Shown: positions 42,901-58,291 of the stretch, in pieces
Position numbering within the stretch: the stretch's first letter is position 1
How the letters are laid out: each line of letters begins with the position of its first letter
Origin: Melioribacter roseus P3M-2
GTDB lineage: Bacteria; Bacteroidota; Ignavibacteria; Ignavibacteriales; Melioribacteraceae
DNA: 64,000 nt
Assembly (NCBI RefSeq): GCF_000279145.1
Contig: NC_018178.1
Coordinates: forward strand, 1,674,001 to 1,738,000
Direction of reading: 5' to 3'
Notes under the pieces: generated by a model
Database searches by the model: none
What the model was told of the DNA's origin: nothing
What the model saw: only the letters and a program-made list of their open reading frames with translations
Program-made: the position numbers and the translations under genes

Positions 42901-43725
42901 TCAGTTCAGAGAAACAGTCATTTTATTTTTCTCGATTTTTTTTATTGCGCGTGTCGAACACTTCTCAATCGGAATTTCCCCGGGATTCAATAACTCGTAA
43001 TTTATGACCGCAAGGTTGTCTATAATTTCAACGGCGCCATTCGAATTTCGGGCGCAAATGCCGCATCCGATACAAGCCGCCGAGCAATTCTCTTTGGAAG
43101 TTTTGGGGTCGTCGTGGCTTTTGCAATAGACGAACAAATCTCTCTCAGCCGGATGCATTTCGATTATTCCGCGCGGGCAGGCTTGAGCGCACAGTCCGCA
43201 GCCTTTGCAAAGCTCTTCGATTACGACGGGGAGTTTGTCGTTACCGATATAGATTGCATTGAATTTGCAAGCCTCTACACAATCGCCGCCGCCGAGGCAA
43301 CCGTAGCTGCATTTTTTATCGCCTCCGGCTACAATGTCCGTCAAAGCGCACTTCGAAGGTCCTTTGTAGTGAACGTCTTTATTTTTAGCTTTGCCGTCGC
43401 CGCCGCCGCAAAGGATACGCGGTAAAAGTTTTATTGCGTTGACGCCGTCGCCGCCTGTAAGTTTTGCAATTTCCGCGGCTGCTTCTTCGTCGCATACCGG
43501 GCAGGAAGTAGGAGCTAATTTCCCTTCGACTACTTTGACTGCAAAATCGTAACAACCGGCATTGCCGCAGGCGCCGCAGTTTGCATTGGGAAGGAGTTCG
43601 CTAACTTTTGCAATTAGAGGATTTTCTTCCACTCTCAATTTCCTGTCGGCAAACGCGAGTCCGCCGGCGAATATGAATCCGAGTCCTCCCATGGTTGCCA
43701 AAGCTATTATCAATATCGAGTCCAT
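42901..43725 (-). CDS. rnfB: Rnf electron transport complex subunit B
   Basis: A 274-residue iron-sulfur subunit. N-terminal membrane helix (about 4-26), then a 4Fe-4S domain CGACGNAGCYDF with a fourth Cys in SCPVC. Ferredoxin-like clusters follow in the C-terminal part: CSYGCLGGGDCVEAC, CKGCGLCAQACP, and CSAACIGCGICA. RnfB is the entry point for electrons from reduced ferredoxin. The start overlaps the apbE stop by one base. Confidence 0.94.
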   Translation of the reverse strand: MDSILIIALATMGGLGFIFAGGLAFADRKLRVEENPLIAKVSELLPNANCGACGNAGCYDFAVKVVEGKLAPTSCPVCDEEAAAEIAKLTGGDGVNAIKLLPRILCGGGDGKAKNKDVHYKGPSKCALTDIVAGGDKKCSYGCLGGGDCVEACKFNAIYIGNDKLPVVIEELCKGCGLCAQACPRGIIEMHPAERDLFVYCKSHDDPKTSKENCSAACIGCGICARNSNGAVEIIDNLAVINYELLNPGEIPIEKCSTRAIKKIEKNKMTVSLN

Positions 43726-44690
43726 TATTCCCCCGCGATATATTTATCGAAATTAAGAGATTTGCGGATTGTCCCTGACGAGTCGACAAAAACCGCTTCG
43801 GTATTTTCGAGCGAGTTTATCAAATTCAAAGCCTCGTCAATTTCCATTACGAAAAGAGCGGTCGACAGAGCGTCGGCGGTCATAGCGTCAGGCGCAATTA
43901 CGGTAACCGATTCATAATGACCGGCAGGTTTGCCCGTCACGGGATTGAAAATATGCGTAATCCTTTTACCGTTCGAATCGATATATTTTTCATAGTCGCC
44001 CGAAGTCGCCACCCCGAAGCCGTCGACTTTTATGACCGCGAGAAAATCGTTCGGATTTCGCGGATGCTGAATTCCGACTTTCCAATCTTTCCCTCTGGCA
44101 AAAATTTCGCCGCCCACGTTAATCAGATATTCTTTAACGCCGTAATTTGATAGCAGATTTGCAATCCTGTCGGCGGCGTAGCCGGGGATACAGGAATTGA
44201 AATTTATTTTGACGCCGGCAGGTTTGACGAGTATATTCGGTTCGCGCAGAGTAATATGTTTCCATCCGGAATTCGAAAGAGCATTTTGAATTTCTCCTTC
44301 GGAAGGAATGCGATAATTGTCTTCGTCGTTATCGAAACCGTAGAGCAACCCGAGGTTTGCAACGGCGGGATCAAACGCTCCGCCGGTTAACTTCCACAAT
44401 TCGTCGCATCTTCTCATAACGTGAAATATTTCACGGTCAATAAGAATTTCGTCGGCAATTGTATTGTTAATTTTCCACATCGGATTGCCGTCGATGTAAG
44501 TTGAAAATAGAGTGTCGAGTCGGCGCGCTTCCTCGAATGAAGCCGTTATTGCTTTGTTTGCAGTTACTTCGTTTACCCCCCGAACCTGTATTTCTATGGC
44601 GCTTCCCATTACGATTGAAACGCGCTTGTAAGTTGTGTCCTCGGAACAGGCAGCCGCGAGCAAAATCAATATGACAAGATATTTTTTCAT
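43725..44690 (-). CDS. apbE: FAD:protein FMN transferase, lipoprotein
   Basis: 321 residues, starting with a lipoprotein signal (lipobox LAAAC about 15). It transfers FMN from FAD covalently to Thr in RnfD and RnfG. The Mg/FAD motif DAMTADALSTALFVM is intact, as are VMGSAIEIQV and LINVGGEIFARG. The gene sits inside the rnf operon between rnfA and rnfB, next to its substrates, which each carry the acceptor motif. Direct overlap with rnfB gives tight coupling. Confidence 0.93.
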   Translation of the reverse strand: MKKYLVILILLAAACSEDTTYKRVSIVMGSAIEIQVRGVNEVTANKAITASFEEARRLDTLFSTYIDGNPMWKINNTIADEILIDREIFHVMRRCDELWKLTGGAFDPAVANLGLLYGFDNDEDNYRIPSEGEIQNALSNSGWKHITLREPNILVKPAGVKINFNSCIPGYAADRIANLLSNYGVKEYLINVGGEIFARGKDWKVGIQHPRNPNDFLAVIKVDGFGVATSGDYEKYIDSNGKRITHIFNPVTGKPAGHYESVTVIAPDAMTADALSTALFVMEIDEALNLINSLENTEAVFVDSSGTIRKSLNFDKYIAGE

Positions 44691-44691
44691 T

Positions 44692-45264
44692 TCAAATCAT
44701 TCCCGCAAAACCCATGAATGCCAGAGCAAGTAGCCCGGCGGTAATTAAAGTTATTGGAGCGCCTTTGAATGCTTCGGGTACGTCGGCCATTTCGAGTTCC
44801 TCGCGTATTCCAGCCATAATAACCAAAGCCATTGTAAATCCAGCTCCGGCTCCAAGTCCGAAAAAAATGCTCTCCATAAACGAATAATTTCTCATCGACA
44901 ATAATAAGGCGAGCCCCAATATAGCGCAATTAGTAGTTATTAAAGGCAGGAAAATACCGAGCGATCGATAAATCGGCTGGCTTACCTTCTTGATTACCAT
45001 TTCTACAAATTGAACAAGAGAAGCGATAACCAATATGAACGAAGGTATCTGAAGAAATTCTAGATTGTAAGGAAGCAATATTTTGAAATAAAGAATCCAG
45101 CTTACTACGGCGCTTATAACCATAACGAACGTCGTAGCCATTCCCATCGATATCGAAGACGAAATTTTATTAGAAACTCCGATAAAAGGGCAAATTCCCA
45201 GAAAGAGCGAAAGCACAAAATTGTTAACTATAGCCGCCGATATGAAAATAATCAAAAGTTCCAT
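44692..45264 (-). CDS. rnfA: Rnf electron transport complex subunit A
   Basis: A 190-residue integral membrane subunit with six helices, homologous to RnfE in the other orientation. Seen: NNFVLSLFLGICPFIGVS (with the Cys that binds the membrane-embedded 2Fe-2S cluster), ITTNCAILGLALL (second Cys) and GAGAGFTMALVIMAGIREEL. Length is exactly that of RnfA. It overlaps rnfE by one base. Confidence 0.95.
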   Translation of the reverse strand: MELLIIFISAAIVNNFVLSLFLGICPFIGVSNKISSSISMGMATTFVMVISAVVSWILYFKILLPYNLEFLQIPSFILVIASLVQFVEMVIKKVSQPIYRSLGIFLPLITTNCAILGLALLLSMRNYSFMESIFFGLGAGAGFTMALVIMAGIREELEMADVPEAFKGAPITLITAGLLALAFMGFAGMI

Positions 45265-45938
45265 TAAACTTTACCCTCCCCGAGAGTTGCTCTGCTTTCT
45301 TTATATTCGGTTATAACCGAATCGATATCGGACTTTTTCTTTTTGTTCACGTAGCCGTTTGCTAATCCCATCATTAATCCGAGAGTAATAAAAGCACCGG
45401 CAGGCAAAATCATGATTAACAGAGGTTCGAAGGAGTCCGGTAAAATCCGGTAGGCGAAGACAGTTCCGTTGCCGAATAATTCGCGAATGCTTCCCATTAA
45501 AGTAAGGGCAATTAAAAAACCGGCGCCGTTGCCGAGCGCATCGAGCAAAGAACGAAGCGGATTGTTCTTGGAAGCAAAAGCTTCGGCTCTGCCGAGAATC
45601 AAACAGTTGACTACAATTAAAGGCACAAAAGGACCGAGCGCTTTGCTCAATTCGGGAAATTTTGCCTTCATTACCAGGTCGGCTATGGTTACAAAAGTAG
45701 CGATTATAACAATATACGCCGCTATGCGCACCTGATTGGGAATCCATTTTCTGATTAACGATATCAACAAACTCGAAAAAATCAGCACGAATGTTGTTGC
45801 CATAGCCATTGCCACGCCGTTAATTGCGGAGACTGTAACCGCAAGCGTTGGGCACATTCCGAGCGCCTGTTTAAACGTCGGATTGATTTCCCATAATCCT
45901 TTGGTAAATTCTTTCCAGTATGAAATTTGTTTTTTCAT
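45264..45938 (-). CDS. rnfE: Rnf electron transport complex subunit E
   Basis: A 224-residue six-helix subunit, paralog of RnfA. Seen: NPTFKQALGMCPTLAVTVSA and PLIVVNCLILGRAEAFASKN, which carry the two cysteine positions of the half-channel, and GNGAGFLIALTLMGSIREL. It overlaps the ends of both rnfG (4 bases) and rnfA (1 base). Confidence 0.95.
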   Translation of the reverse strand: MKKQISYWKEFTKGLWEINPTFKQALGMCPTLAVTVSAINGVAMAMATTFVLIFSSLLISLIRKWIPNQVRIAAYIVIIATFVTIADLVMKAKFPELSKALGPFVPLIVVNCLILGRAEAFASKNNPLRSLLDALGNGAGFLIALTLMGSIRELFGNGTVFAYRILPDSFEPLLIMILPAGAFITLGLMMGLANGYVNKKKKSDIDSVITEYKESRATLGEGKV

Positions 45939-46498
45939 AGTTTATTCGATTGCTTTTCGATTCTTGCTTTTTCTAACACGTCGTTAATAATTTTGCAAAC
46001 GGATTTGGAGGAAATGGTCGCTCCTGTAATCGCCTCTATTTCGTTCGGCTTTTCCGGCGCTTTGCCTTTAACCCAATTTACCGACGGTAGAGCGGATAAA
46101 TTTTTGAATTGATTCCTAAATTCGTCTTCAGTAATTAGGGAGCCGAGTCCGGGCGTTTCGACCTGTTCCAGAATTTCGATTGCCGTAATTTTGGCAAGCG
46201 CCGTATCCGTTCCGATCATTAGTCTGATCTTTCCCTGAAAGCCGTTGCCTTCGGCTACAATGGAATAACCGGCAGGAACGCTTTTTTCGTCATAAACTTT
46301 ATAGACTTCGCCTAAGTCGGTTTCAATTTTCTTATAGCTTTTTGCATTATTATGCACCAGATAAATAGCGGCTTCGGTCTCGGCAATTCTGTTAGCTTCG
46401 ATATGAGGAGCCGCCCAGTTCGAAACGCCTGATAGAACCGCTCCCGACGCCAAAGCTATTGAAGTAAGCGCGATAATCATTTTAATGCTGTTGTTCAT
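45935..46498 (-). CDS. rnfG: Rnf electron transport complex subunit G
   Basis: 187 residues from ATG 46498 (MNNSIKMI); the frame opens further upstream but that part overlaps rnfD. One N-terminal membrane helix (about 5-24) anchors a periplasmic FMN-binding domain. The covalent FMN site is in IEAITGATISSKSV, the [S/T]GAT form recognised by ApbE. VETPGLGSLI is the other conserved block. The ATGA overlap with rnfD confirms the start. Confidence 0.93.
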   Translation of the reverse strand: MNNSIKMIIALTSIALASGAVLSGVSNWAAPHIEANRIAETEAAIYLVHNNAKSYKKIETDLGEVYKVYDEKSVPAGYSIVAEGNGFQGKIRLMIGTDTALAKITAIEILEQVETPGLGSLITEDEFRNQFKNLSALPSVNWVKGKAPEKPNEIEAITGATISSKSVCKIINDVLEKARIEKQSNKL

Positions 46499-47469
46499 TT
46501 TGCCTCCCCGAAAATTTTCGGGTGCGTCAATCTGTTGATAAGCGGCACAAAAGCGTTCATTATTAAAATGCCGTACATTACTCCTTCCGGCAGACCTCCG
46601 AAGAGTCGTATTACTACTATTATAAGCGAGATCAATAAACCGTAAATCCACATGCCCGCGGAAGTATAAGGAGAAGTTACCCAATCGGTCGCCATGAAGA
46701 ATGCGCCCAATAAAAATCCGCCGCTGAAAAGATGAAACAGAGGATTGGGATATTTGATCGGATCAATAAACCAGAAAATTGAACCGAACAGAATCAATCC
46801 CAAAATCATAGATAACGGTATTCGCCAATTGACAATTTTAATCCCGATCAAAAATACGCCTCCGATTATAATCGCCAAGGCGGAAGTCTCTCCAATCGAA
46901 CCGCCTACGTTCCCGATAATCAAAGGTTCGATTCCCGTTATCATTTTGTCGAATTTGAAAGCTGCAAGCGGCGTTGCCGACGTAACCGTGTCGACTGCAA
47001 AATTCGGTTTGCTCCATGTCGTCATTGCGACGGGATATGCCGCCTGGAGAAAAGCTCTACCGACGAGAGCCGGATTAAAAATATTAAAACCGAGTCCGCC
47101 GAATAATTCTTTCCCGATAATAATTGCGAACGCCGAACCGATGGCGGCGGATGTCAATGAAAAATTCGGAGGTATGATTAAACCGAGAAGCAACCCCGTT
47201 AAAAACGCGCTTCCGTCATAAATCGTAATTTCGGATTTCCTGATTATTTTAACGACTATCTCGGATAAAACAGCCGCTGCGCAACTTACGCCGATTACGA
47301 CCAACTGATATAATCCGAAAAATACCGCAGCCGAAATTAGAGCCGGCAGCAAAGATAAATTTACCAGCCACATTACCTGTTGAGTTGTAAATTTGGAATG
47401 AACATGAGGCGAACTGCTCAGTTCCAATCCCGAAATTACATTGACCGTTTGATTTGCCGAATTAGACAT
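46495..47469 (-). CDS. rnfD: Rnf electron transport complex subunit D
   Basis: A 324-residue membrane subunit (about nine helices). Covalent FMN acceptor Thr in DTVTSATPLAAF (T in the SAT core). SPHVHSKFTTQQVMWLVNLS near the N-terminus and GGYLIG-like MATDWVTSPYTSAGMWIYG near the C-terminus are family signatures. It is thought to carry ions with RnfA/E. Start overlaps nothing; the stop overlaps rnfG by 4 bases. Confidence 0.95.
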   Translation of the reverse strand: MSNSANQTVNVISGLELSSSPHVHSKFTTQQVMWLVNLSLLPALISAAVFFGLYQLVVIGVSCAAAVLSEIVVKIIRKSEITIYDGSAFLTGLLLGLIIPPNFSLTSAAIGSAFAIIIGKELFGGLGFNIFNPALVGRAFLQAAYPVAMTTWSKPNFAVDTVTSATPLAAFKFDKMITGIEPLIIGNVGGSIGETSALAIIIGGVFLIGIKIVNWRIPLSMILGLILFGSIFWFIDPIKYPNPLFHLFSGGFLLGAFFMATDWVTSPYTSAGMWIYGLLISLIIVVIRLFGGLPEGVMYGILIMNAFVPLINRLTHPKIFGEAK

Positions 47470-47482
47470 TGATTTATCTTAT

Positions 47483-48802
47483 TTAATTTGTCTTTTGTTT
47501 TAATAAAGCAGAAGATTTCCGTTTCCCGTATCTGATCCATTGCACAAGGGGAATACCCGCAGGACAATTGTATGTACATGTGCCGCATTCCATACAGGTC
47601 TGCAATCCGATATCAATCGCTTCTTCGAATTTGTCGAATCTTGAAAATTTATATAAACGCGTGGGCGCGAGATCGAGCGGACAAACGGACAAACATCTGC
47701 CGCAATTCAAACAGTTGCTTTCTTTTATTCCGGGCGCTTCTTTTCCCGTAAGAACCAATATTCCCGAAGTGGCTTTTGTAACGGGGGAATTCAAATCGAA
47801 TTGCGCAAATCCCATCATCGGTCCGCCCGCTACTATTTTTTTTGCGTTTTCTTTAATGCCTCCGCAGTAATCGATAATGTTTTTTAAAGGCGTTCCGACA
47901 GGCACAATAAGATTTTTGGGCTCGACTATTCCGAGTCCGGAGACTGTTAAAAATGCATTTATCTGAGGCTCCCCTTTTACAACGGCGTTGTAAATGGAAA
48001 CCGCCGTGCCGACATTATGAATAATGCAACCGACGTCAAAAGGCAGTTTGCCGGGAGGAACTTCTCTTCCTGTAACGGCTTTTATCAACATTTTCTCAGC
48101 GCCCTGAGGATATTTTGTTTTTAATACTTTAAGAGAAATGTTTTCTTCGTTTCTCAAAACATTTTCCAGTTTTTTAATGGCTTCCGGCTTATTGTCTTCA
48201 ACGCCGATTATTCCGTAAAGCACGCCTGCAGCTTTCAAGATCAATTTCAGACCTGTAATCACTTCTTCCGTTTTTTCGATAAGGAATCGGTAGTCTCTCG
48301 TAAGGTATGGTTCGCACTCGCAAGCGTTAAGAATAACGTAATCGATTTTTTTGTCCGGCGGAGGCGATAATTTTACATAAGTAGGAAATGCCGCCCCGCC
48401 CTGTCCGACAATGCCGGCTTGTTTAACTCGTTCTATTATTTTTTCGCGGGCAACTGTGACGGGATTGAGCGGTTCCATCAGATCGTCTTCATCAATATCC
48501 GAGCGATTTATTATTACTGCCTCCGACCGTATTCCCGTTAACGTTATTATCGAAGTGGTTTTGTTAATTTTTCCGGTAACAGGAGAATGAATCGGAGCGG
48601 ATATAAAACCGTCGGGTTCGGCTATCATCTCGCCTTTCCTGACGGCGTCGCCTTTCTTCTTCAATAATAACGCTTGTTTGCCTGCGTGCTGAGAAAGAGG
48701 TAAACAAATTTGCTCCGGAAGAGGTAAGAACTCGAAAGGTTTTTCCGAAGTTAGTTCTTTCATCTCTGCCGGATGAACTCCGCCTTTAAAAGTCGTGGTC
48801 AT
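47483..48802 (-). CDS. rnfC: Rnf electron transport complex subunit C
   Basis: A 439-residue peripheral subunit that reduces NAD+. Seen: TFKGGVHPAEMKEL at the start, the Complex-I-like flavin/NAD fold (KIDYVILNACECEPYLTRDY, EGEPQINAFLTVSGLG, IIDYCGG) and two 4Fe-4S motifs CLNCGRCLSVCP (about 370) and CMECGTCTYNCP (about 405). First gene of rnfCDGEA-apbE-rnfB-rseC. A GGGGAGG ribosome site is close to the ATG. The Rnf complex couples ferredoxin oxidation to NAD+ reduction and ion transport; whether sodium or protons are moved is not visible. Confidence 0.95.
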   Translation of the reverse strand: MTTTFKGGVHPAEMKELTSEKPFEFLPLPEQICLPLSQHAGKQALLLKKKGDAVRKGEMIAEPDGFISAPIHSPVTGKINKTTSIITLTGIRSEAVIINRSDIDEDDLMEPLNPVTVAREKIIERVKQAGIVGQGGAAFPTYVKLSPPPDKKIDYVILNACECEPYLTRDYRFLIEKTEEVITGLKLILKAAGVLYGIIGVEDNKPEAIKKLENVLRNEENISLKVLKTKYPQGAEKMLIKAVTGREVPPGKLPFDVGCIIHNVGTAVSIYNAVVKGEPQINAFLTVSGLGIVEPKNLIVPVGTPLKNIIDYCGGIKENAKKIVAGGPMMGFAQFDLNSPVTKATSGILVLTGKEAPGIKESNCLNCGRCLSVCPLDLAPTRLYKFSRFDKFEEAIDIGLQTCMECGTCTYNCPAGIPLVQWIRYGKRKSSALLKQKTN

Positions 48803-48987: not shown

Positions 48988-49893
48988 CTATAATATTGCC
49001 GGCTCCCGAAAGTAATCCGACATTTTTGAGTTTACTTGCGGTAAAACTTCCGGGCTGATATTAAGATTATTCGGATCGATATCGACGAGGAAGAGTGAAG
49101 AACCGGCGCCGTCGACCGACGCTCCTGCGTTTAATATTACGATTCCTTTCCGTTCGTAGAGTTTCATGTCGTGACTGTGTCCGTGCATAATAATACGTAC
49201 GCCGCGCCGTTTGAAAAGCGACAACAATTTCTTCTTGCCCCTCAGTTTCATTGTATGGCTTTCGATACGGCTCCAAATTGATTTTCCCGAACTTTTGCTC
49301 TCTTCCGAATTTTTGTAGAAGTGGTGATGTATCAATACGATTTTTTCTTTGCTCTCCATCTCAGCGGCGGACAGCAGCATGTCGATTTCCTCGCGTTCCG
49401 ATTTACTCACTTTCCCGTTCGATGCAAAAGGATTTTTCAGCTTGGAATAATAATCGACCGAATTGATGCCGATTAAAGCTATATCGTTTAGGATTTTCAA
49501 ATAAGGAAAACGCTTTCCTTCGTTTACCGTTACGGTCGAGTCGAAAAGACTGCTGAAGTGTTCGCAAAATATTTCCACTTTTAATTCGTAATTTGTTTTT
49601 TCGCAGCGGGAAGGAAAATCGATTATATCCGACGCAAGTTCTACCCCGCCGAATATATCGTGATTGCCGATTACAACGGAAACTCTGTCCGAATGAAACA
49701 GATCGTATTTTATTAATAGTTCTCTCAAATCGGCAAAATCTCTTTCGTCCGAATTGTCCGATATATCTCCAGTTATTACGATATGGTCGGCCAGATTATT
49801 GAGAGCAAATTCAATCAACCTCTCGGTTTTTTCCAAATTCTTTCTTCTGAACTTCCTGTTCAGATGGAGGTCGGATATATGAGCTATTTTCAT
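48988..49893 (-). CDS. Calcineurin-like metallophosphoesterase
   Basis: A 301-residue dinuclear metal phosphoesterase. The metal ligands are in order: ISDLHLN (DxH, about 6-12), ITGDISD (GD), IGNHDIFGG (GNHD), LIHHHFY (H), MHGHSHDM (GHxH). No signal peptide, so cytoplasmic. The substrate class (nucleotide, lipid A-type or protein phosphate) is unknown. It diverges from the sugar operon and has its own array of TTAACA-type repeats immediately upstream, suggesting a phosphate-response role (inference). Confidence 0.88.
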   Translation of the reverse strand: MKIAHISDLHLNRKFRRKNLEKTERLIEFALNNLADHIVITGDISDNSDERDFADLRELLIKYDLFHSDRVSVVIGNHDIFGGVELASDIIDFPSRCEKTNYELKVEIFCEHFSSLFDSTVTVNEGKRFPYLKILNDIALIGINSVDYYSKLKNPFASNGKVSKSEREEIDMLLSAAEMESKEKIVLIHHHFYKNSEESKSSGKSIWSRIESHTMKLRGKKKLLSLFKRRGVRIIMHGHSHDMKLYERKGIVILNAGASVDGAGSSLFLVDIDPNNLNISPEVLPQVNSKMSDYFREPAIL

Positions 49894-49929
49894 AAAAAGA
49901 ATAAATTTATTTGATGTAAATTTAGCGGT

Positions 49930-49973
49930 CTAATGTTAAGAGAGTTTTACCGTAATGTTAAGTAAAAATTAAG
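49930..49973 (-). promoter_or_regulatory. Pho-box-like array facing the metallophosphoesterase gene
   Basis: On the minus strand four consecutive 11-base units start at 49973, 49962, 49951 and 49940: CTTAATTTTTA, CTTAACATTAC, GGTAAAACTCT, CTTAACATTAG. Three of the four share CTTAA(C/T). The 11-base period and TTAACA core are those of PhoP/PhoB-type direct-repeat operators. The array ends 36 bases before the start codon at 49893. Confidence 0.5.
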
Positions 49974-50038
49974 TATTCTTTTTGAAGCCTAAATGGAATT
50001 TGACTAAATTCGAGTGGGGAAATAATAAAAATGATGAC

Positions 50039-50082
50039 TTAACAATTTGATAACGGTTATCTAACGTTTTCTTAACAATAAA
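50039..50082 (+). promoter_or_regulatory. Pho-box-like array facing the surface-sugar operon
   Basis: Four consecutive 11-base units on the plus strand start at 50039, 50050, 50061 and 50072: TTAACAATTTG, ATAACGGTTAT, CTAACGTTTTC, TTAACAATAAA. All carry TAAC at the same phase. It lies 50 bases before the first gene of the sugar operon. The opposed array in the same intergenic region uses the same core, TTAACA(A/T)T, so one regulator probably binds both. Confidence 0.55.
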
Positions 50083-50132
50083 TAAAAAATTTTTTCCCAG
50101 TTTTGTATTTTCTCAAATAAAGATAATTCAAT

Positions 50133-51140
50133 ATGAAAAAGAAAATACTCTTCATAGGCGGTTCTCTCAATCAAACTACAATGATGCATAAAATATCGAA
50201 GTATTTCGAAGATTACGATTGCTATTTCACCCCGTTTTACGACGACGGATATATCGGATGGTTTGCTTCCAAAGGGATACTCGATTTTACGATTCTCGGA
50301 GGCAATTTCAAAAAGATGACGCTTGAATACCTCGAAAGCAACAATCTGAAAATCGATTACAAAGGCAAGCGGCACGATTACGATCTGGTCTATACGTGCG
50401 CCGATCTGATCGTTCCCAAGAATATCAGAAACAAAAAATTGATCCTCGTTCAGGAAGGCATGACCGACCCCGAAAATTTCGCATTCTATCTTGTAAAATA
50501 TTTTAATTTCCCTCGTTGGATAGCAAGCACATCCACGATGGGAATGTCGAATCTCTACGATATTTTCTGTGTTGCTTCCGAAGGGTATAAAGAATTATTC
50601 GCGCGCAAAGGAGCCGACCCGAATAAAATTTTCGTAACCGGAATACCCAACTTCGACAACGCTAAAGAATTTTTGAACAACGATTTTCCCCATAAGAATT
50701 ACGTGCTCGTCGCCACTTCCGATACGAGAGAGACCTTTAAATACGAAAACAGAAAAAAGTTTATTAAAAAATGCGTGAAGATTGCAAACGGGCGGCAGTT
50801 GATTTTCAAACTTCACCCGAATGAAAATGCGGAAAGGGCGACTCGGGAAATCAATAAATACGCTCCGGGAGCTTTAGTCTATCACAACGCAAACACAAAT
50901 CATATGATTGCCAATTGCGATGTGCTGATTACAAAATATTCGTCGGTCGTTTATATAGGATTGGCTTTGGGTAAAGAAGTTTATTCGTCGTTCGACATCG
51001 AAGAGCTCAAAAAACTTATGCCTATTCAAAATAACGGTACGTCTGCCGAAAGGATCGCAAAGCTGGGGCTCCATTTTCTCGAGTCGCCGAGCAATTCATT
51101 GAATGAAATTCATCAGAATTTCGATTTGATTACGGCATGA
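50133..51140 (+). CDS. Putative GT-B-type glycosyl/glycerophosphotransferase
   Basis: 335 residues. The N-terminal half is divergent; the C-terminal half reads as a GT-B nucleotide-sugar domain: FVTGIPNFDNAKEFL, LIFKLHPNENAERATREI and ANCDVLITKYSSVVYIGLAL, the last resembling the C-terminal site of CDP-glycerol:polyglycerol phosphate transferases and UDP-GlcNAc 2-epimerases. No signal or membrane helix. First gene of an eight-gene operon; its stop overlaps the next gene by 4 bases. The donor could be the CMP-sugar made by the following genes (inference). Confidence 0.6.
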   Translation: MKKKILFIGGSLNQTTMMHKISKYFEDYDCYFTPFYDDGYIGWFASKGILDFTILGGNFKKMTLEYLESNNLKIDYKGKRHDYDLVYTCADLIVPKNIRNKKLILVQEGMTDPENFAFYLVKYFNFPRWIASTSTMGMSNLYDIFCVASEGYKELFARKGADPNKIFVTGIPNFDNAKEFLNNDFPHKNYVLVATSDTRETFKYENRKKFIKKCVKIANGRQLIFKLHPNENAERATREINKYAPGALVYHNANTNHMIANCDVLITKYSSVVYIGLALGKEVYSSFDIEELKKLMPIQNNGTSAERIAKLGLHFLESPSNSLNEIHQNFDLITA

Positions 51141-51942
51141 AAATAGTCGCCGTCATACAGGCTCGAATGACTTCGACGCGCCTACCCGGCAAGGTGATGC
51201 TGCCGGTTCTCGGTCAGCCGCTGCTATCGAGAATGATCGAACGCGCGCGAAAATCGGTTATGGCCGATGAAATTGTCGTGGCTACTTCCGATCAAAAAGA
51301 AGACGACCCGATAGAGAGATTATGCAAAGAGACAAATGTTGAATGCTTCCGGGGGCATTTAACCGATCTTCTCGACCGGCATTACAAGGCGGGTTTGATA
51401 TACGGAGCCGACGCGGTCGTTAAAATCCCGTCCGACTGCCCGCTCATCGATCCGGCAATTATCGACAAAGTGCTGAAATGTTTTTCCGACGGTAATTTCG
51501 ATTACGTAAGCAACCTTCATCCGGCTACATATCCCGACGGAAACGACGTCGAAATAATGTCGATCGAAGCGCTCGAAAAAGCCTGGCGTAATGCCCAAAA
51601 AAATTACGAGCGCGAGCATACTACGCCTTATTTTTGGGAAAATCCTCATTTGTTCGAATTAGGCAATGTCGTATGGGAAACGGGACTAAATTATTCGACT
51701 ACAATGCGCTGGACGATCGACTACGAGGAAGACTATCGCTTTGTCAAAAGAGTATTCGAAGAGCTTTATCCGGTCAAACCGGATTTCGGCTTGAATGATA
51801 TTCTCGATTTGCTCGAACGAAAACCCGAAATAAAAAAATAAACGAAAAATATCTAGGCAAATACTGGTACGAAAATCATCTGGACGAACTCAATAACATC
51901 GAAGAATATAAATCGGCAATTAATAAAAAGACGGATAAATGA
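51137..51942 (+). CDS. SpsF-like cytidylyltransferase (CMP-sugar synthetase family), frameshifted near 3' end as given
   Basis: A CTP_transf_3-type enzyme activating an acidic sugar with CMP. Seen: VAVIQARMTSTRLPGKVMLP (nucleotide loop), KIPSDCPLIDP and MRWTIDYEEDYRFVKRVFEE. As given the frame stops at 51839-51841 after KPEIKK. Adding one A to the A7 run at 51832-51838 continues it as INEKYLGKYWYENHLDEL and on to TGA 51940-51942, three bases before the next start, giving 268 residues. The tail KPEIKKIN...YLG..WY..HLDEL fits SpsF-family C-termini as I know them. Coordinates follow the restored reading. Confidence 0.8.
51832..51838 (+). other. A7 run where the spsF-like gene loses its frame
   Basis: In ATAAAAAAATAAAC the codons ATA AAA AAA are followed by the stop TAA. 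One extra A gives ATA AAA AAA ATA AAC, and the frame stays open for 33 more codons of coding-like sequence up to the next gene. Confidence 0.75.
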
Positions 51943-51945
51943 ATT

Positions 51946-53283
51946 ATGGCAAACAAAATAAGACTTGACAACGATTATCCGGTTATAACCAAATCGGATG
52001 AACTCTACAGCAGGGCGCTCGGATTAATTCCTTCAGTAACGCAAACTTTGGCTAAAGGCCCCACTCAATGGATTAACGGCGTTGCGCCGAAATATTTGGT
52101 CAAAGGAAAAGGCTCGCACGTGTGGGACGCCGACGGCAACGAGTATATCGATTTTTTAATGGGAGTCGGTCCATTGTCGTTAGGTTACGCATATCCGCGA
52201 GTGGACGAAGCGATTAAAAAGCAATTAGAAGACGGAATTACGTTTTCGATGATGCATCCATTGGAAGTGGAAGTGGCCGAAATGATACGAGACGTTATTC
52301 CGAATGCCGAAGCGGTCAGATACAGTAAAACCGGAGCCGACGTAACGAGCGCCGCAGTTAGACTGGCAAGAGCCTATACGGGAAAAAACAAAATTCTCTG
52401 TTGCGGTTATCACGGCTGGCACGATTGGTACGTTTCGGTTACGGCGCGCAATTACGGCATACCGGAAGAAGTTCAGAAATTAACTTTTACTTTTGATTAC
52501 AACAATATCGATTCGCTGAAGAATTCGATCGACGACGATACCGCCGCCGTTATACTCGAACCGGTCGTCTTTCAGGAACCGAAAGATAATTTTCTGCATA
52601 AAGTTGCCGATTTGTGCAATGAAAAAGGTATTGTCTTAATCTTCGACGAAATGTGGACGGGTTTTCGCATGGCGTTAGGCGGCGCTCAGGAATATTTCGG
52701 CATTACTCCCGACCTGGCGACTTATTCCAAGGCTGTCGCAAACGGAATGCCGATTGCGATACTTACGGGTAAAAAGGAAATAATGAAACTTGCCGACGAG
52801 GACATCTTCTTCTACACTACATTCGGCGGCGAAGCGCTTTCGCTTGCAGCGGCTAAAGCCACTATCGAAGAAATGAAAGAGAAAAACGTGATCCCGTTTC
52901 TCGATAAACAGGGTAGGAAAATCAAAGACGGCTACAACGAAATCGCCTCGAAACTCGGGCTCGATACTACAAAAGCCGTAGGATACAACTGGCGTTCGAT
53001 GGCTACGTTCGATCCGAAAGGAGGAGACCCGCTTTTGCAAAAATCCTTCATGCAGCAGGAGATGATTAAGCGCGGAGTGCTATGGCAGGGATTTCACAAT
53101 ATCAGTTTTTCGCATACTGACGAAGATATCGACTATACGCTTGGGGCTTTGGAAGAATCCTTGACGCTTCTTAAGAAAGCCATAGAAAACAACAATCTCA
53201 AATCGCTTCTCAGAGGCAAACCCGTCGAACCCGTTTTCAGAAAGACGGATAATTTTAATATGAAACCGGCTGCAAAAAAGTGA
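51946..53283 (+). CDS. Class III PLP aminotransferase, glutamate-1-semialdehyde aminomutase-like
   Basis: A 445-residue fold-type I PLP enzyme of the HemL-like group. Seen: GVAPKYLVKGKGSHVWDADG and YIDFLMGVGPLSLGY at the start, YSKTGADVTSAAVRLARAYT (PLP phosphate loop), LIFDEMWTGFR (cofactor Asp) and TYSKAVANGMPIAILTG with the Schiff-base Lys. It lies in a sugar operon between a CMP-sugar synthetase and an SDR, so amination of a keto-sugar is a better guess than tetrapyrrole synthesis. Sugar aminotransferases are usually of the DegT/DnrJ type, which makes this placement notable. Confidence 0.82.
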   Translation: MANKIRLDNDYPVITKSDELYSRALGLIPSVTQTLAKGPTQWINGVAPKYLVKGKGSHVWDADGNEYIDFLMGVGPLSLGYAYPRVDEAIKKQLEDGITFSMMHPLEVEVAEMIRDVIPNAEAVRYSKTGADVTSAAVRLARAYTGKNKILCCGYHGWHDWYVSVTARNYGIPEEVQKLTFTFDYNNIDSLKNSIDDDTAAVILEPVVFQEPKDNFLHKVADLCNEKGIVLIFDEMWTGFRMALGGAQEYFGITPDLATYSKAVANGMPIAILTGKKEIMKLADEDIFFYTTFGGEALSLAAAKATIEEMKEKNVIPFLDKQGRKIKDGYNEIASKLGLDTTKAVGYNWRSMATFDPKGGDPLLQKSFMQQEMIKRGVLWQGFHNISFSHTDEDIDYTLGALEESLTLLKKAIENNNLKSLLRGKPVEPVFRKTDNFNMKPAAKK

Positions 53284-53290
53284 GAATGTG

Positions 53291-54094
53291 ATGGAATTAT
53301 TTACGCTCGAAAATAAGGTCGCCGTTGTTACCGGAGCGCTCGGCTTGCTCGGAAGGGAGCATTGCAAAGCGTTATCGTCCGCCGGCGCAACCGTCGTTGT
53401 TACGGATATCGACGGAGAAAAAGCCTCGGAATTTGCCCGGGAATTATCAGGCAATTCTATCGGACTCGGAATGGATGTAACAAACCCGGAGTCGATTAAA
53501 AAGGCAAGAGATATAATCCTTCAAAAATTCGGGCATATAGATGTGCTGGTGAACAACGCGGCAATCAACGATATGTTCGAAAATCCGAAAGCCGCGGCGG
53601 AGGAATCCAAATTCGAAAATTATCCGCTGGCATTATGGCAAAAATCTCTCGACGTTAATCTTACGGGAGTTTTTCTAACTTCGCAGATACTCGGAACGCC
53701 GATGGCCGAAAGAGGCAAAGGAAGCATTATAAATATCGCTTCCACATACGGAATCGTTGCGCCGGATCAATCGCTCTATCGCAATAAAGAAGGTGCTCAA
53801 TCGTTCCACAAACCTCCGGCGTATTCGGTTACAAAAGGCGGCGTTATAATGTTTACCAGATACCTCGCCGCATATTGGGGGCGCAAAGGTGTGCGCGTTA
53901 ACGCCCTTAGCCCGGGGGGAGTTGAAAATAACCAGGACAATTTCTTCGTCGAAAAATATTCTTCGAAAACGCCGCTCGGAAGAATGGCTAAACGCAACGA
54001 CTATTGGGGAGCCTTGATCTTCCTTGCCAGCGACGCCTCGGAATATATGACCGGCGCTAATCTGGTGGTCGACGGCGGATGGACCTGCTGGTAA
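53291..54094 (+). CDS. Short-chain dehydrogenase/reductase
   Basis: A 267-residue classical SDR: TGALGLLGREHCKALSSAG (TGxxxGxG-type NAD(P) loop), VLVNNAAIND, IINIASTYGIV (catalytic Ser), YSVTKGG (Tyr and Lys), and LSPGGVENNQDNF. The Asp at the end of the second strand (VVTDID) favours NAD(H). ATG 53291 is preferred over a GTG one codon earlier. In the operon it could oxidise or reduce a hydroxyl of the sugar acted on by the adjacent aminotransferase (inference). Confidence 0.85.
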   Translation: MELFTLENKVAVVTGALGLLGREHCKALSSAGATVVVTDIDGEKASEFARELSGNSIGLGMDVTNPESIKKARDIILQKFGHIDVLVNNAAINDMFENPKAAAEESKFENYPLALWQKSLDVNLTGVFLTSQILGTPMAERGKGSIINIASTYGIVAPDQSLYRNKEGAQSFHKPPAYSVTKGGVIMFTRYLAAYWGRKGVRVNALSPGGVENNQDNFFVEKYSSKTPLGRMAKRNDYWGALIFLASDASEYMTGANLVVDGGWTCW

Positions 54095-54124: not shown

Positions 54125-54663
54125 ATGTCTAAAAAAAGATTACAAAAAAGGAACTCTATAAAAAAGCCACAAAAATAAAATTGGTTCTTACGGATGTAGA
54201 CGGCGTGTTAACCGATACCGGAGTTTATTATTCCGCCCAGGGAGAGTTGATGAAACGTTTTTCCATTCGGGACGGAATGGGCGTAGAACGCTTGAGAACG
54301 CTTGTCGACGTCGAAACGGGAATAGTTACCCGCGAAGATACCAACATTGTTAAAACGCGCGCCGTTAAACTTAAGATTGAGGAACTGCACATGGGAGTTC
54401 TGGAAAAAGAAAAACTTGTGGATGATATTTTGAAGAGAAAAAATCTTACTAAAGACGAAGTGGCTTTTATCGGCGACGATACCAACGACGTCGGTATTAT
54501 GAAACTTGTGGGACTTGCCGCGTGTCCTTCGGATGCAACCCGTTTTGCCAAGAAAGTTGCGGACGTTGTTTTGGAGCATCCCGGCGGCTACGGCGCATTC
54601 CGCGACCTTGCCGAACTGATTATCGACGCCAAAACGAAAGCCACGAAAAAGGGTAAGAAATGA
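54125..54663 (+). CDS. KdsC-like HAD phosphatase, frameshifted near 5' end as given
   Basis: A small C0-type HAD phosphatase. Seen: LVLTDVDGVLTDTGVYYS (DxD nucleophile), FSIRDGMGVERLR, GIVTREDTNIVKTRA, VAFIGDDTNDVGIMKLVGL and GYGAFRDLAELI. The natural start is ATG 54125, after an AAGGA ribosome site, but that frame ends at a stop after 17 codons. Adding one A to the A6 run at 54144-54149 joins it as KKELYKKATKIKLVLTDVDG, giving 179 residues, normal for KdsC. A TTG at 54181 is the only start in the intact frame and would lack the N-terminal strand. Overlaps the next gene by 4 bases (ATGA). Probably dephosphorylates the NeuB-like product. Confidence 0.82.
54144..54149 (+). other. A6 run where the kdsC-like gene loses its frame
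   Basis: Reads CAAAAAAGGAAC. Seven As would give CAA AAA AAG GAA CTC, joining the ATG 54125 frame to the HAD frame. Confidence 0.8.
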
Positions 54664-55529
54664 GAGTAAAGGTAGGTGGAAAATTTATCGGCGAGGGCGA
54701 GCCGGTCTATGTCATAGCCGAGATCGGAATTAATCACAACGGGTCGCTCGAACTGGCTAAAAAACTGATCGACGGCGCCGTCTTTGCTGGGTGCGACGCC
54801 GTAAAATTTCAGAAACGGACTCCTGAATTATGCGTTCCGAAAGATCAATGGCATCTCGAACGCGATACGCCATGGGGAAGAATTACTTATATAGAATACC
54901 GTCATAAAGTCGAATTCGGTTACGACGAATATGCCGAGATAGACAAATATTGTAAATCAAAAGGGATCGATTGGTTCGCCTCTGCATGGGACGAAGAAGC
55001 CGTCGATTTCCTCGAGCAATTCGAACCCGTTATGTATAAAGTAGCCTCGGCGTCGCTTACAGACGATAAATTGTTGTCCAGAATTAAATCGACGGGCAAA
55101 CCGATTATGCTTTCGACGGGCATGTCCACGCTCGAAGAAGTAGACCGCGCAGTCAATTATCTCGGAAAGAAAAACTTACTTATCGCACAGTCGACTTCGA
55201 GTTATCCGTGCAGTCTGGAAGAACTGAACTTACGCGTTATTGATACATACAAAAAAAGATATCCCGAAATTCCGATAGGCTATTCCGGGCACGAAACCGG
55301 ATTGGCTCCGTCGCTTGCGGCAGTGGCTCTGGGCGCTGTATTCGTAGAACGGCATATTACGCTCGACCGAGCAATGTGGGGAACAGACCAGGCGGCGTCG
55401 GTTGAAATCGGCGGAATGTACAGACTTGTAAAAGATATACGCGACATCGAAAAAGCTCTCGGCGACGGCGTTAAAAGAGTTTACGAAAGCGAATTAAAAA
55501 GTAAAATAAAACTGCGAAGGAGCGGATAA
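54660..55529 (+). CDS. NeuB-like nonulosonate synthase without SAF domain
   Basis: A 289-residue TIM-barrel enzyme condensing phosphoenolpyruvate with a sugar aldehyde. Seen: VYVIAEIGINHNGSLELAKK, GCDAVKFQKRTPELCVPKDQ, WFASAWDEEAVDFLEQFEPV, YKVASASLTDDKLL and PIGYSGHETGLAPSLAAVAL with the metal-site VERHITLD. The barrel is complete, but the C-terminal SAF (antifreeze-like) domain of sialic acid synthases is missing: usual length is about 340-350. Genes next door (KdsC-like, CMP-sugar synthetase-like) fit KDN- or sialic-acid-like synthesis. Start overlaps the phosphatase stop. Confidence 0.87.
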   Translation: MRVKVGGKFIGEGEPVYVIAEIGINHNGSLELAKKLIDGAVFAGCDAVKFQKRTPELCVPKDQWHLERDTPWGRITYIEYRHKVEFGYDEYAEIDKYCKSKGIDWFASAWDEEAVDFLEQFEPVMYKVASASLTDDKLLSRIKSTGKPIMLSTGMSTLEEVDRAVNYLGKKNLLIAQSTSSYPCSLEELNLRVIDTYKKRYPEIPIGYSGHETGLAPSLAAVALGAVFVERHITLDRAMWGTDQAASVEIGGMYRLVKDIRDIEKALGDGVKRVYESELKSKIKLRRSG

Positions 55530-57472
55530 TGAAAAGAATAATTACTTTGGCGTTTTTTTTAATCATCCCTTTTTATCTCGGCGCCGGTCAATATGAAGTT
55601 GAATCTCCCTCAAAAAAACTGAGAGTTACAATCAATACGGACGGTCGTCTTACTTATTCGGTTTCTTACGAAAACGAGATGATTATAAACCCTTCGGAAA
55701 TTTCGTTGATGCTCGACAAAGGAATATTGGGAAAGAATCCGTCGGTAAAAAACAACTCGGTCAAATATGTCAATCGCGAACTTAAACCTGTCGTAAGACA
55801 AAAATACGCGGTCATTAAAGACGAATTCAACGAATTGCGTTTGGACTTCGAAAATAATTTTACTCTCTTTGTAAGAGTTTACGACGAAGGTTTCGGTTAC
55901 AGAATATCGACGTCGTTTGAAGATTCTATTACGGTCAAAGAAGAAATTTTTGAGGCAAATTTTGCAAACGATTTCAACGTCTATTTCCCGCAGGAAGAGA
56001 GTTTTATGTCTCACTCGGAACGTCTTTATAAATATCTTCCGTTAAGTGAGATTGACGAAAAAAGTTTTTGCTCGCTTCCCGCTTTGGTCGATCTGAATAA
56101 CTCAATTAAAGTTGCAATCACCGAAGCCGATCTATACGATTATGCGGGTCTCTATCTAAGAGGCGCCAATTCTACCGTTCTGAAAGGATTGTTCCCTTAC
56201 TATCCCGCCGAAACGGAAATGAAAAGCGACAGGGACGTTTATGTGACTAAACGTAAAGATTATATAGCGCGAACGAACGGAACGAGAAATTTTCCGTGGA
56301 GAGTGTTCGTAGTTACAGATAACGACGGCGCCTTAATCGAAAATACGATGGTCTATAAACTTGCTGAGCCGCACGACCCTCATATTGATTTCTCCTGGGT
56401 AAAACCGGGCAAGGTGGCATGGGATTGGTGGAATGCAAACAATATTTATAAAGTCGATTTCAGAGCCGGAATCAATACCGCCACTTACAAATATTATATC
56501 GATTTTGCTTCGCAGCACGGAATCGAATATGTAATACTCGACGAAGGCTGGTACAAGTTAGGCAATCTCCTGGAAGAAAGTCCGGATATAAACGTAAAAG
56601 AAATAGTCGACTACGCCAAAGAAAAAAACGTCGGAATAATTCTATGGGTAATCTGGAAAACTCTCGACGACCAGTTTGAAGAAGCAATGACTCTTTTTGA
56701 AAAGCTCGGCGTAAAGGGAATTAAAGTCGATTTTATGCAAAGGGACGACGCCTGGATGGTGAATTACTATTATAAAGTTGCGCGCGAAGCCGCCAAACGG
56801 AAACTGCTCGTCGATTTTCACGGCGCTTATAAACCTACGGGATTGTACAGAACTTATCCGAATGTTCTAACCAGCGAGGGAGTTCTGGGACTCGAACACA
56901 ATAAATGGAGCGAAGACGTAACTCCCGAACACAATACTACTATTCCGTTTATTAGAATGCTCGCCGGTCCGATGGACTATACTCCCGGTGCGATGAATAA
57001 CGCCGTTAAAGGTAATTTCAGGGATATCTTTACTCAGCCGATGAGTCAGGGTACGAGATGCCATCAGCTTGCCATGTATATAATTTACGAAAGCCCTCTG
57101 CAAATGCTTGCGGACAGTCCTACAAATTATCTGCGCGAAAAAGAGTCGCTCGAATTTCTTTCGATCGTTCCGGCAGTGTGGGACGACACAAAAGTTCTGG
57201 ATGCTAAGGTGGGCGATTATGTAGTTATGGCAAGAAGATCGGGCAATAAATGGTTTGTGGGAGCTATGACTGATTGGAACGCAAGAACTTTAAAGCTCGA
57301 GCTTTCGTTCTTGGATGAAAACAGGAATTACGAAATTACAATTTATCGGGACGGCATTAACGCCGACAGAAACGGAAACGATTATAAGATTGTCAGATCG
57401 ACTGTGAAAAAGGGCGAAGTGATTGAAATTAATCTGGCACCCGGCGGCGGATGCGCGGCGGTAATCGAATAA
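55529..57472 (+). CDS. GH97 alpha-glycosidase, exported
   Basis: 647 residues with a signal peptide (RIITLAFFLIIPFYLGAG). The N-terminal beta-sandwich begins with VESPSKKLRVTINTDGRLTY, a GH97 mark. The barrel region shows KVAWDWWNANNIYKVDFRAG, YVILDEGWYKLGNL, GVKGIKVDFMQRDDAWMV and NVLTSEGVLGLEHNKWSED. The Asp in KVDFM is where retaining GH97 alpha-galactosidases place their nucleophile (family recollection), so alpha-galactosidase is the leading guess over SusB-type glucosidase. Its start overlaps the NeuB-like stop by one base. Confidence 0.85.
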   Translation: MKRIITLAFFLIIPFYLGAGQYEVESPSKKLRVTINTDGRLTYSVSYENEMIINPSEISLMLDKGILGKNPSVKNNSVKYVNRELKPVVRQKYAVIKDEFNELRLDFENNFTLFVRVYDEGFGYRISTSFEDSITVKEEIFEANFANDFNVYFPQEESFMSHSERLYKYLPLSEIDEKSFCSLPALVDLNNSIKVAITEADLYDYAGLYLRGANSTVLKGLFPYYPAETEMKSDRDVYVTKRKDYIARTNGTRNFPWRVFVVTDNDGALIENTMVYKLAEPHDPHIDFSWVKPGKVAWDWWNANNIYKVDFRAGINTATYKYYIDFASQHGIEYVILDEGWYKLGNLLEESPDINVKEIVDYAKEKNVGIILWVIWKTLDDQFEEAMTLFEKLGVKGIKVDFMQRDDAWMVNYYYKVAREAAKRKLLVDFHGAYKPTGLYRTYPNVLTSEGVLGLEHNKWSEDVTPEHNTTIPFIRMLAGPMDYTPGAMNNAVKGNFRDIFTQPMSQGTRCHQLAMYIIYESPLQMLADSPTNYLREKESLEFLSIVPAVWDDTKVLDAKVGDYVVMARRSGNKWFVGAMTDWNARTLKLELSFLDENRNYEITIYRDGINADRNGNDYKIVRSTVKKGEVIEINLAPGGGCAAVIE

Positions 57473-57487
57473 AAATAATTGCGAAGT

Positions 57488-58291
57488 ATGGAATTCGAAT
57501 CGTATGAATTAATATCGTATGCGGTTATCGTTATGACCGCGGTTTTGTTCGTCTTGCTCGAAAGGATATTTCCTTACAATAAAGGGCAGGAAGCGCTGCG
57601 CAAAGGATTCTTTGACGATTTGGCGTTCTACACAATCGCGCAAAGCTACATACTCGGTATTTTTATATTTACCGTAATCATAAATGGAATCGATAATGCT
57701 ACCGGCTTGTCGCGGCTCGGTTTGTTTGCCAATGTACCGATCTGGATTCAGTTAATCTTTTTTACCGTAACGCACGATTTTTATATCTATTGGATGCACA
57801 GGTGGCAGCATCGAAATAAATTCTTATGGCGGCTTCACGAAGCGCATCATTCGCCGCAAAAAGTCGATTGGCTTTCGGGATCGAGAAGCCATGCGTTCGA
57901 AATCCTTATAAATCAGACCGTGGAGTTTATGCCGATAGTTTTGCTCGGTTCGCCGCCGGAAGTAATTGCGTACAAAGGAGTAATTAGCGCGGTCTGGGGA
58001 ATGTATATCCATTCGAATCTGAATGTACGGACGGGCAGGTTACAATACGTTATTAACGGACCGGAGATGCACCGTTGGCACCACACTACCGGCAAAGGCA
58101 GAAACAGGAATTTTGCAACCAAACTTGCCATATGGGATTGGCTCTTCAATTCGGCTTTCTTGCCAGGCGATAAAGCCGAGCAGTACGGATTAAAAACGTT
58201 TTTTCCCGACAACTATTTCAAGCAGTTTCTTTTCGCATTCAGACCCTTTAAGAAAAAGAAAAACAGCCTGCTCGACAGATTGTTTCGCTGA
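57488..58291 (+). CDS. Fatty acid hydroxylase/sterol desaturase family membrane protein
   Basis: 267 residues with about four membrane helices and the eight-histidine di-iron set: HDFYIYWMHRWQH, RLHEAHHSPQKVDW and MHRWHHTTGKGRNRNF. The family hydroxylates or desaturates lipids. It starts 15 bases after the GH97 gene and ends the operon. It could modify a lipid tail of a surface glycolipid (inference). A TTG at 57479 is a possible but less likely start. Confidence 0.85.
   Translation: MEFESYELISYAVIVMTAVLFVLLERIFPYNKGQEALRKGFFDDLAFYTIAQSYILGIFIFTVIINGIDNATGLSRLGLFANVPIWIQLIFFTVTHDFYIYWMHRWQHRNKFLWRLHEAHHSPQKVDWLSGSRSHAFEILINQTVEFMPIVLLGSPPEVIAYKGVISAVWGMYIHSNLNVRTGRLQYVINGPEMHRWHHTTGKGRNRNFATKLAIWDWLFNSAFLPGDKAEQYGLKTFFPDNYFKQFLFAFRPFKKKKNSLLDRLFR

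Follow-up and report, generated by a model that had tools for sequence, protein, structure and literature searches.

Opposed Pho-box-like arrays between a metallophosphoesterase gene and a CMP-nonulosonate-type sugar operon of Melioribacter roseus: a probable divergent phosphate-starvation promoter

The locus and its two arrays

The stretch of DNA analyzed here, hereafter called the window, comprises 64,000 nucleotides of Melioribacter roseus P3M-2 and corresponds to positions 1674001-1738000 of its single-contig, 3,300,414-base genome. An intergenic region of low GC content (23% versus a background of 42%) separates a phosphoesterase gene from a divergently oriented sugar operon, and carries two arrays of 11-bp units on opposite strands. 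The features of the locus are the following:

48988..49893, minus strand: calcineurin-like metallophosphoesterase (PF00149, 7e-19; no signal peptide seen)
49917..49924, minus strand: predicted -7 box TAAATTTA (5/6 to TAnnTTTG; 15 nt past the start of unit 4 of array 1)
49929..49972, minus strand: array 1, four 11-bp units TTAATTTTTAC TTAACATTACG GTAAAACTCTC TTAACATTAGA, toward the phosphoesterase
50039..50082, plus strand: array 2, four 11-bp units TTAACAATTTG ATAACGGTTAT CTAACGTTTTC TTAACAATAAA, toward the sugar operon
50098..50105, plus strand: predicted -7 box CAGTTTTG (5/6 to TAnnTTTG; 26 nt, i.e. 15+11, past the start of unit 4 of array 2)
50133..51140, plus strand: GT-B fold transferase/epimerase-like protein, named w335 here (weak PF04464 and PF02350)
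51137..51841, plus strand: CMP-sugar cytidylyltransferase, KdsB/NeuA-like (PF02348, 2.5e-33)
51946..53283, plus strand: class-III (glutamate-semialdehyde type) aminotransferase (PF00202, 8e-50)
53288..54094, plus strand: short-chain dehydrogenase (SDR; PF13561, 1e-49)
54181..54663, plus strand: KdsC/KDN-9-phosphate phosphatase-like HAD protein (NF058599, 1.4e-43; TIGR01670, 128 bits)
54660..55529, plus strand: NeuB-family nonulosonate synthase (PF03102, 2e-77)
55529..57472, plus strand: GH97 glycoside hydrolase (PF10566, 6e-115)
57479..58291, plus strand: fatty-acyl/sterol hydroxylase family protein (PF04116, 1e-29; NF052566 (OlsE), 120 bits)

A preliminary description of this DNA had proposed two opposed Pho-box-like arrays, and its account of their bases agrees with what we find. 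All four plus-strand units at 50039-50082 have TAAC in phase, three of the four units that it placed at 49973-49930 on the minus strand (CTTAATTTTTA, CTTAACATTAC, GGTAAAACTCT and CTTAACATTAG) have CTTAA(C/T), and TTAACA(A/T)T is present in both arrays; our register of array 1 is the earlier one moved by one base. Profile matches to both sides of the region likewise bear out that one array points toward a calcineurin-like phosphoesterase and the other toward a sugar operon. The third unit of array 1 is weak, and array 2, in which the first base is off in two units, is the weaker of the two arrays.

The residues of the binuclear metal site of the phosphoesterase are invariant or nearly so, and its fold is nearest to those of Rv0805 and GpdQ; a sequence search of the PDB with this protein gave no match. 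On the same strand, 3' of the phosphoesterase gene, lies an Rnf electron-transport cluster (43725-48802; RnfC by Pfam, ApbE-like and membrane subunits by eye), and RnfC is also found beside the phosphoesterase in some relatives. On the other side, the structural model of w335 has a pLDDT of 90 and is nearest to UDP-GlcNAc 2-epimerases and TagF, a PDB sequence search with w335 giving one weak TagF-like match. The HAD protein scores below the cut-off of NF058599 (149 versus 180 bits) and above that of TIGR01670. Judged by its families (NeuB, the KdsC/KDN-phosphatase-like HAD protein and the KdsB/NeuA-like transferase), the product of the operon is predicted to be a CMP-activated nonulosonate-type sugar.

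Array scores and the link to pst genes

When the 64 kb were scanned for four TTAAC units at 11-bp spacing, the two arrays were the top match of their respective strands (18/20 and 17/20), and all period-11 TTAAC scores of at least 15 lay within this one intergenic region. To avoid circularity, an 11-position matrix was trained without any site of this region, using 60 units taken from 15 pst or TonB-receptor operon promoters, of which M. roseus itself supplied one and its relatives 14. Its consensus is TTAACATTnnC, i.e. TTAAC, then mostly ATT, and C or G at position 11. Applied to sets of four units, the matrix gave 31.7 bits for array 1 (minus strand, 49972) and 22.9 bits for array 2 (plus strand, 50039), while the next independent site in the 64-kb window, overlapping registers aside, scored -3.9 bits. 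Neither array's score was attained when the intergenic region was shuffled 1000 times with its dinucleotide composition kept, a control that allows for its AT-richness.

Genome-wide, the exact pattern TAAC(7)TAAC(7)TAAC is present at three places only, namely this region, the pst cluster and 1244227-1244252. Looser patterns were not enriched: with one mismatch the TAAC pattern had 17 matches genome-wide versus 41 for its reversed control, and a pattern count at three mismatches likewise showed no enrichment over the reversed control, so that exact or matrix-scored arrays alone were used. The pattern searches covered the whole genome, and the matrix scan covered the window plus 226 kb of other stretches (overlaps included). 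These 226 kb contained only two more sites above 15 bits, at the pst cluster (43.2 bits) and at 1244253 on the minus strand (31.6 bits). The latter is a third strong array (1244210-1244253), which is followed 15 nt on by TATTTTCG and faces a 131-aa ORF that has no Pfam or NCBIfam match; the array and this ORF are a probable further member of the Pho regulon. An imperfect TTAAC array at 928129-928155, ahead of an apparent remnant of an ATPase gene, is probably due to chance. In 1.59 Mb of DNA from relatives, made up of loci chosen for these genes, no array of at least 20 bits lay within a gene. Footprinting within the genus did not set the arrays apart from the rest (79/88 versus 130/151 identical) and was uninformative, because the genomes are too close.

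The exact pattern TTAAC(6)TTAAC(6)TTAAC occurs at one place only in the genome, 3079822-3079859. This array is located 47 bp 5' of a cluster, assumed here to be a single transcript, that has the order TonB receptor - secreted protein - hypothetical protein - porin-like protein - pstS - pstC - pstA - pstB - pstB - phoU. Among 20 loci of relatives that were selected by the exact array alone, pst genes are downstream in seven, and the same TonB-receptor/partner-protein pair is directly downstream in ten more; the other three are the present phosphoesterase/sugar locus itself (L120), a locus with a partner-protein-like gene (L119) and one with an unidentified gene (L127). Enrichment near phosphate genes had been set beforehand as one test of the Pho-box reading, and the array at the pst cluster and 17 of these 20 loci provide it. 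According to our own tally, the 164 genomes of the order contain 97 exact arrays (in 59 genomes) versus 13 for the reversed pattern. At two loci (L118 and L126) the array is immediately preceded by phoB and phoR and immediately followed by pst, and at two others (L161 and L162) the phosphoesterase gene and its array are located between pstB and phoB. Two hallmarks of a Pho box are present: tandem 11-bp half-sites in phase, and a site 5' of pst in the genome itself and in its relatives. The array-headed TonB-receptor/partner pair is similar to the TonB transporter and partner lipoprotein that Flavobacterium johnsoniae induces at low phosphate, along with PhoB, PlcP and a lipid glycosyltransferase (PMC8115612).

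The arrays also have a defined position relative to the predicted promoters. At the pst promoters, TAnnTTTG lies 15 nt past the start of unit four; where additional weaker units come after it, the distance is 26 or 37 nt. Scored against this motif, the pst set averages 4.6 out of 6 at offset 15 and 1-3 elsewhere. TAnnTTTG is the -7 consensus of the Bacteroidota, to which each predicted -7 box of the window has one mismatch. Arrays facing the phosphoesterase have their -7 score peak at the same offset (4.8), those facing the sugar operon have weaker peaks, at 15 and 26, and on the array 2 side the congener has the same arrangement of the -7 box. With this spacing the arrays would cover the -33 region, as they do where PhoB activates; in other words, and as in a Pho box, the sites are predicted to adjoin or overlap the -35/-33 region at a fixed distance from the -10/-7 box.

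Conservation of the layout and linked lipid genes

Orthologues of the phosphoesterase are present in 31 of 58 relatives, and its divergent neighbor is usually the GT-B gene w335. Arrays above 15 bits in both directions are found in the window, in the congener (whose equivalent of array 2 scores 21.9 bits; L087) and in about ten further genera, most of which share the sugar operon beside the phosphoesterase. In two of these genera NeuB, with or without a glycosyltransferase 2 gene, replaces the w335 operon; a single overlapping stretch yields both array scores at one such locus (L089). The gene order that the operon retains is w335 - cytidylyltransferase - (split transketolase) - aminotransferase - SDR - HAD phosphatase - NeuB - (GH97) - OlsE-like hydroxylase, GH97 being part of the operon in some genera only.

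A separate set of 76 w335 loci allowed the two arrays to be followed individually. In the 19 loci with a divergent phosphoesterase, an array faces the phosphoesterase in 16 and both arrays are present in 11. In the 57 loci without it, where the gene on the divergent side is mostly an unrelated one (LD-carboxypeptidase, LysE and others), an array points away from w335 in only one and faces w335 in 18, some of them in Bacteroidales and some in MAGs labelled Nitrospirae; the remaining 39 of these 57 operons have no array. Since the presence of an array tracks the phosphoesterase or w335 separately, each array appears to belong with its own gene. The two-faced layout was also seen with other genes: in an uncultured member of the Bacteroidales (L205:1-1707), opposed arrays lie between an LpxH-like phosphoesterase gene and a family-4 glycosyltransferase gene.

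Two observations suggest that the operon has to do with lipids. Firstly, OlsE is the only NCBIfam match of the hydroxylase encoded by its last gene, and secondly, an OlsF-type ornithine-lipid synthase gene follows the operon in 12 loci of relatives. The match to OlsE (120 bits) misses the cut-off of 475 bits, and we therefore rejected an assignment as OlsE proper and use the term OlsE-like. The OlsF copies of two relatives score 674 and 719 bits versus an NCBIfam cut-off of 620, and at three loci (L211, L216 and L228) the operon ends with OlsF and the phosphoesterase as its final pair of genes, separated by 2 to 31 bp. A search of the M. roseus genome for OlsF gave no match, and a search for the lipid glycosyltransferase of the relatives gave only a far-away relative of 26% identity. 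At another locus (L209:14622-16464), an OlsF gene is preceded, at a distance of about 45 bp, by an array of its own that scores 22.5 bits. In one relative (G001), a gene similar to those of diglucosyl-diacylglycerol synthases adjoins the phosphoesterase gene; both are part of a phosphate island (L125:1969-13077) that also contains an array-headed TonB receptor, an M28 peptidase, a PstS-like binding protein, DUF6938, opposed arrays, a glycosyltransferase 2 gene and NeuB. The phosphoesterase is a plausible PlcP candidate: it is a calcineurin-like metallophosphoesterase with the metal-site motifs, it clusters with lipid genes, and it is predicted to be under Pho-box control.

A probable divergent phosphate-starvation promoter

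The likeness of the arrays to those of the pst promoters, the conservation of the layout, the spacing to the -7 boxes and the linkage to particular genes can all be read from the DNA. They support the proposal that the arrays are Pho boxes, and in our view the arrays are real and very probably of this kind. We estimate a probability of about 0.87 for the reading of the region as a divergent phosphate-starvation promoter; for the part in which it drives a phosphate-sparing remodelling of envelope or lipids, taken alone, the chances are somewhat better than even. Points that speak against the reading are the weaker array 2, the single mismatch in either -7 box, the below-cut-off scores of the PhoB-like regulator and the number of OmpR-type domains (both described below), the missing OlsF match in this genome and the 39 array-less w335 operons among the 57 that have no divergent phosphoesterase.

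We infer that the binder is PhoB and that it activates rather than represses. Each arm would offer phosphorylated PhoB a Pho box of four in-phase 11-bp half-sites, the last strong unit of which starts 15 or 26 nt 5' of a Bacteroidota-type -7 box. With this spacing, tandem PhoB would sit on the -33 region and recruit RNA polymerase outward in both directions, so that low phosphate would probably turn on both arms: on one side the cytoplasmic metallophosphoesterase, and on the other side a surface-remodelling operon for a CMP-activated nonulosonate-type sugar, with its GT-B protein and OlsE-like lipid hydroxylase. The phosphoesterase, PlcP-like in its action, would free phosphate from phospholipid, and the response would likely serve to exchange envelope lipids or glycans that contain phosphate for others that do not. 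A more specific version, which as a whole we consider doubtful, is that the divergent pair forms one lipid-remodelling machine in Ignavibacteria and some other phyla. The phosphoesterase would then dismantle phospholipids under starvation, and the operon would make an unknown acidic lipid that takes the place of anionic phospholipid but contains no phosphate. In this lipid, the GT-B protein would have attached a nonulosonate-type (KDN/Kdo-like) sugar to diacylglycerol or a (hydroxylated) ornithine lipid.

Activation of both arms is not the only way in which PhoB could act here. At low phosphate it might be a repressor of either arm or of both, like B. subtilis PhoP at the tag genes, or a single arm might work with the other array being auxiliary, in line with the lower strength of array 2 and with its -7 box lying one unit further off. 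We consider this improbable, given that the array-to--7 spacing equals that of the pst promoters, which are PhoB-activated in known systems, and that an array stays with its own gene when the neighbor differs.

Slightly less probable still is that another regulator of the OmpR family, for example of an envelope-stress type, binds the arrays and also acts on pst, phosphate not being the main signal. Arrays of 11 bp are general for OmpR/PhoB proteins, and the genome encodes five OmpR-type DNA-binding (Trans_reg_C) domains. The best models for the PhoB-like regulator among them (2713999-2714697) are Bacteroidota PhoB and PhoB, both under their NCBIfam cut-offs (249 versus 270 and 226 versus 296), and those for the adjoining kinase are PnpS/PhoR, also under cut-off. 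This candidate PhoB/PhoR pair (2713999-2715718) adjoins neither the window nor pst. On the other hand, the strongest arrays of many genera are located 5' of pst and of its outer-membrane partners, two genomes have phoBR next to both the array and pst, and two more have phoB beside the phosphoesterase, all of which argues for PhoB. A further response regulator and histidine kinase (2374539-2376566) are apparently broken by stop codons or frameshifts.

Finally, chance repeats in AT-rich intergenic DNA, an explanation suggested by the 23% GC of the region and the unenriched loose patterns, can be dismissed in view of the shuffles, the margin of 27 bits over the next independent site of the 64 kb, the conservation in about ten other genera and the association of arrays with genes in the 76 w335 loci.

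A divergent promoter activated by PhoB at low phosphate would belong to a kind of system that is already known. The PhoB boxes of E. coli and the PhoP boxes of B. subtilis are also in-phase 11-bp direct repeats, located immediately 5' of the core promoters of phosphate-starvation genes such as pst, and those of B. subtilis PhoP are direct repeats of TTAACA, the core also seen here. The arrays described here differ from both in having the consensus TTAACATTnnC, usually four or more units, and a fixed distance from a TAnnTTTG -7 box. B. subtilis PhoP also governs the switch from teichoic to teichuronic acid through the divergent tagAB/tagDEF promoter and the tua operon. The two cases would share a divergent, phosphate-controlled promoter region and the exchange of a phosphate polymer for a phosphate-free acidic sugar polymer; however, the genes are unrelated, the envelope here is Gram-negative, and both arms look activated. 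Lipid remodelling by PlcP under phosphate starvation (PMC4796936) and ornithine lipids at low phosphate (PMC12186959) are further precedents. As in PlcP/Agt and OlsF/OlsBA remodelling, a calcineurin-like phosphoesterase is linked to a predicted Pho box, and relatives cluster it with diglucosyl-DAG-synthase-like or OlsF/OlsE-like genes (PMC4796936, PMC8115612, PMC12186959). In contrast to those systems, the phosphoesterase is paired here with a CMP-nonulosonate-type sugar operon that encodes a GT-B protein; the enzyme is a PlcP candidate only, and the genome has no detectable OlsF.

The literature searched, which included few subscription journals, yielded neither a Pho-box consensus for Ignavibacteria or Bacteroidetes nor a description of this clade consensus, of the conserved back-to-back layout or of the linked nonulosonate/OlsE/OlsF gene set. 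The results provide a usable model of Pho box and promoter for Ignavibacteria and their relatives, most of which are known only from metagenomes and whose phosphate regulons may thereby become readable from sequence. They also connect phosphate starvation with a CMP-nonulosonate-type operon that is widely conserved but uncharacterised and has OlsE/OlsF-like genes, a connection that predicts a phosphate-free envelope lipid or glycan in Melioribacter.
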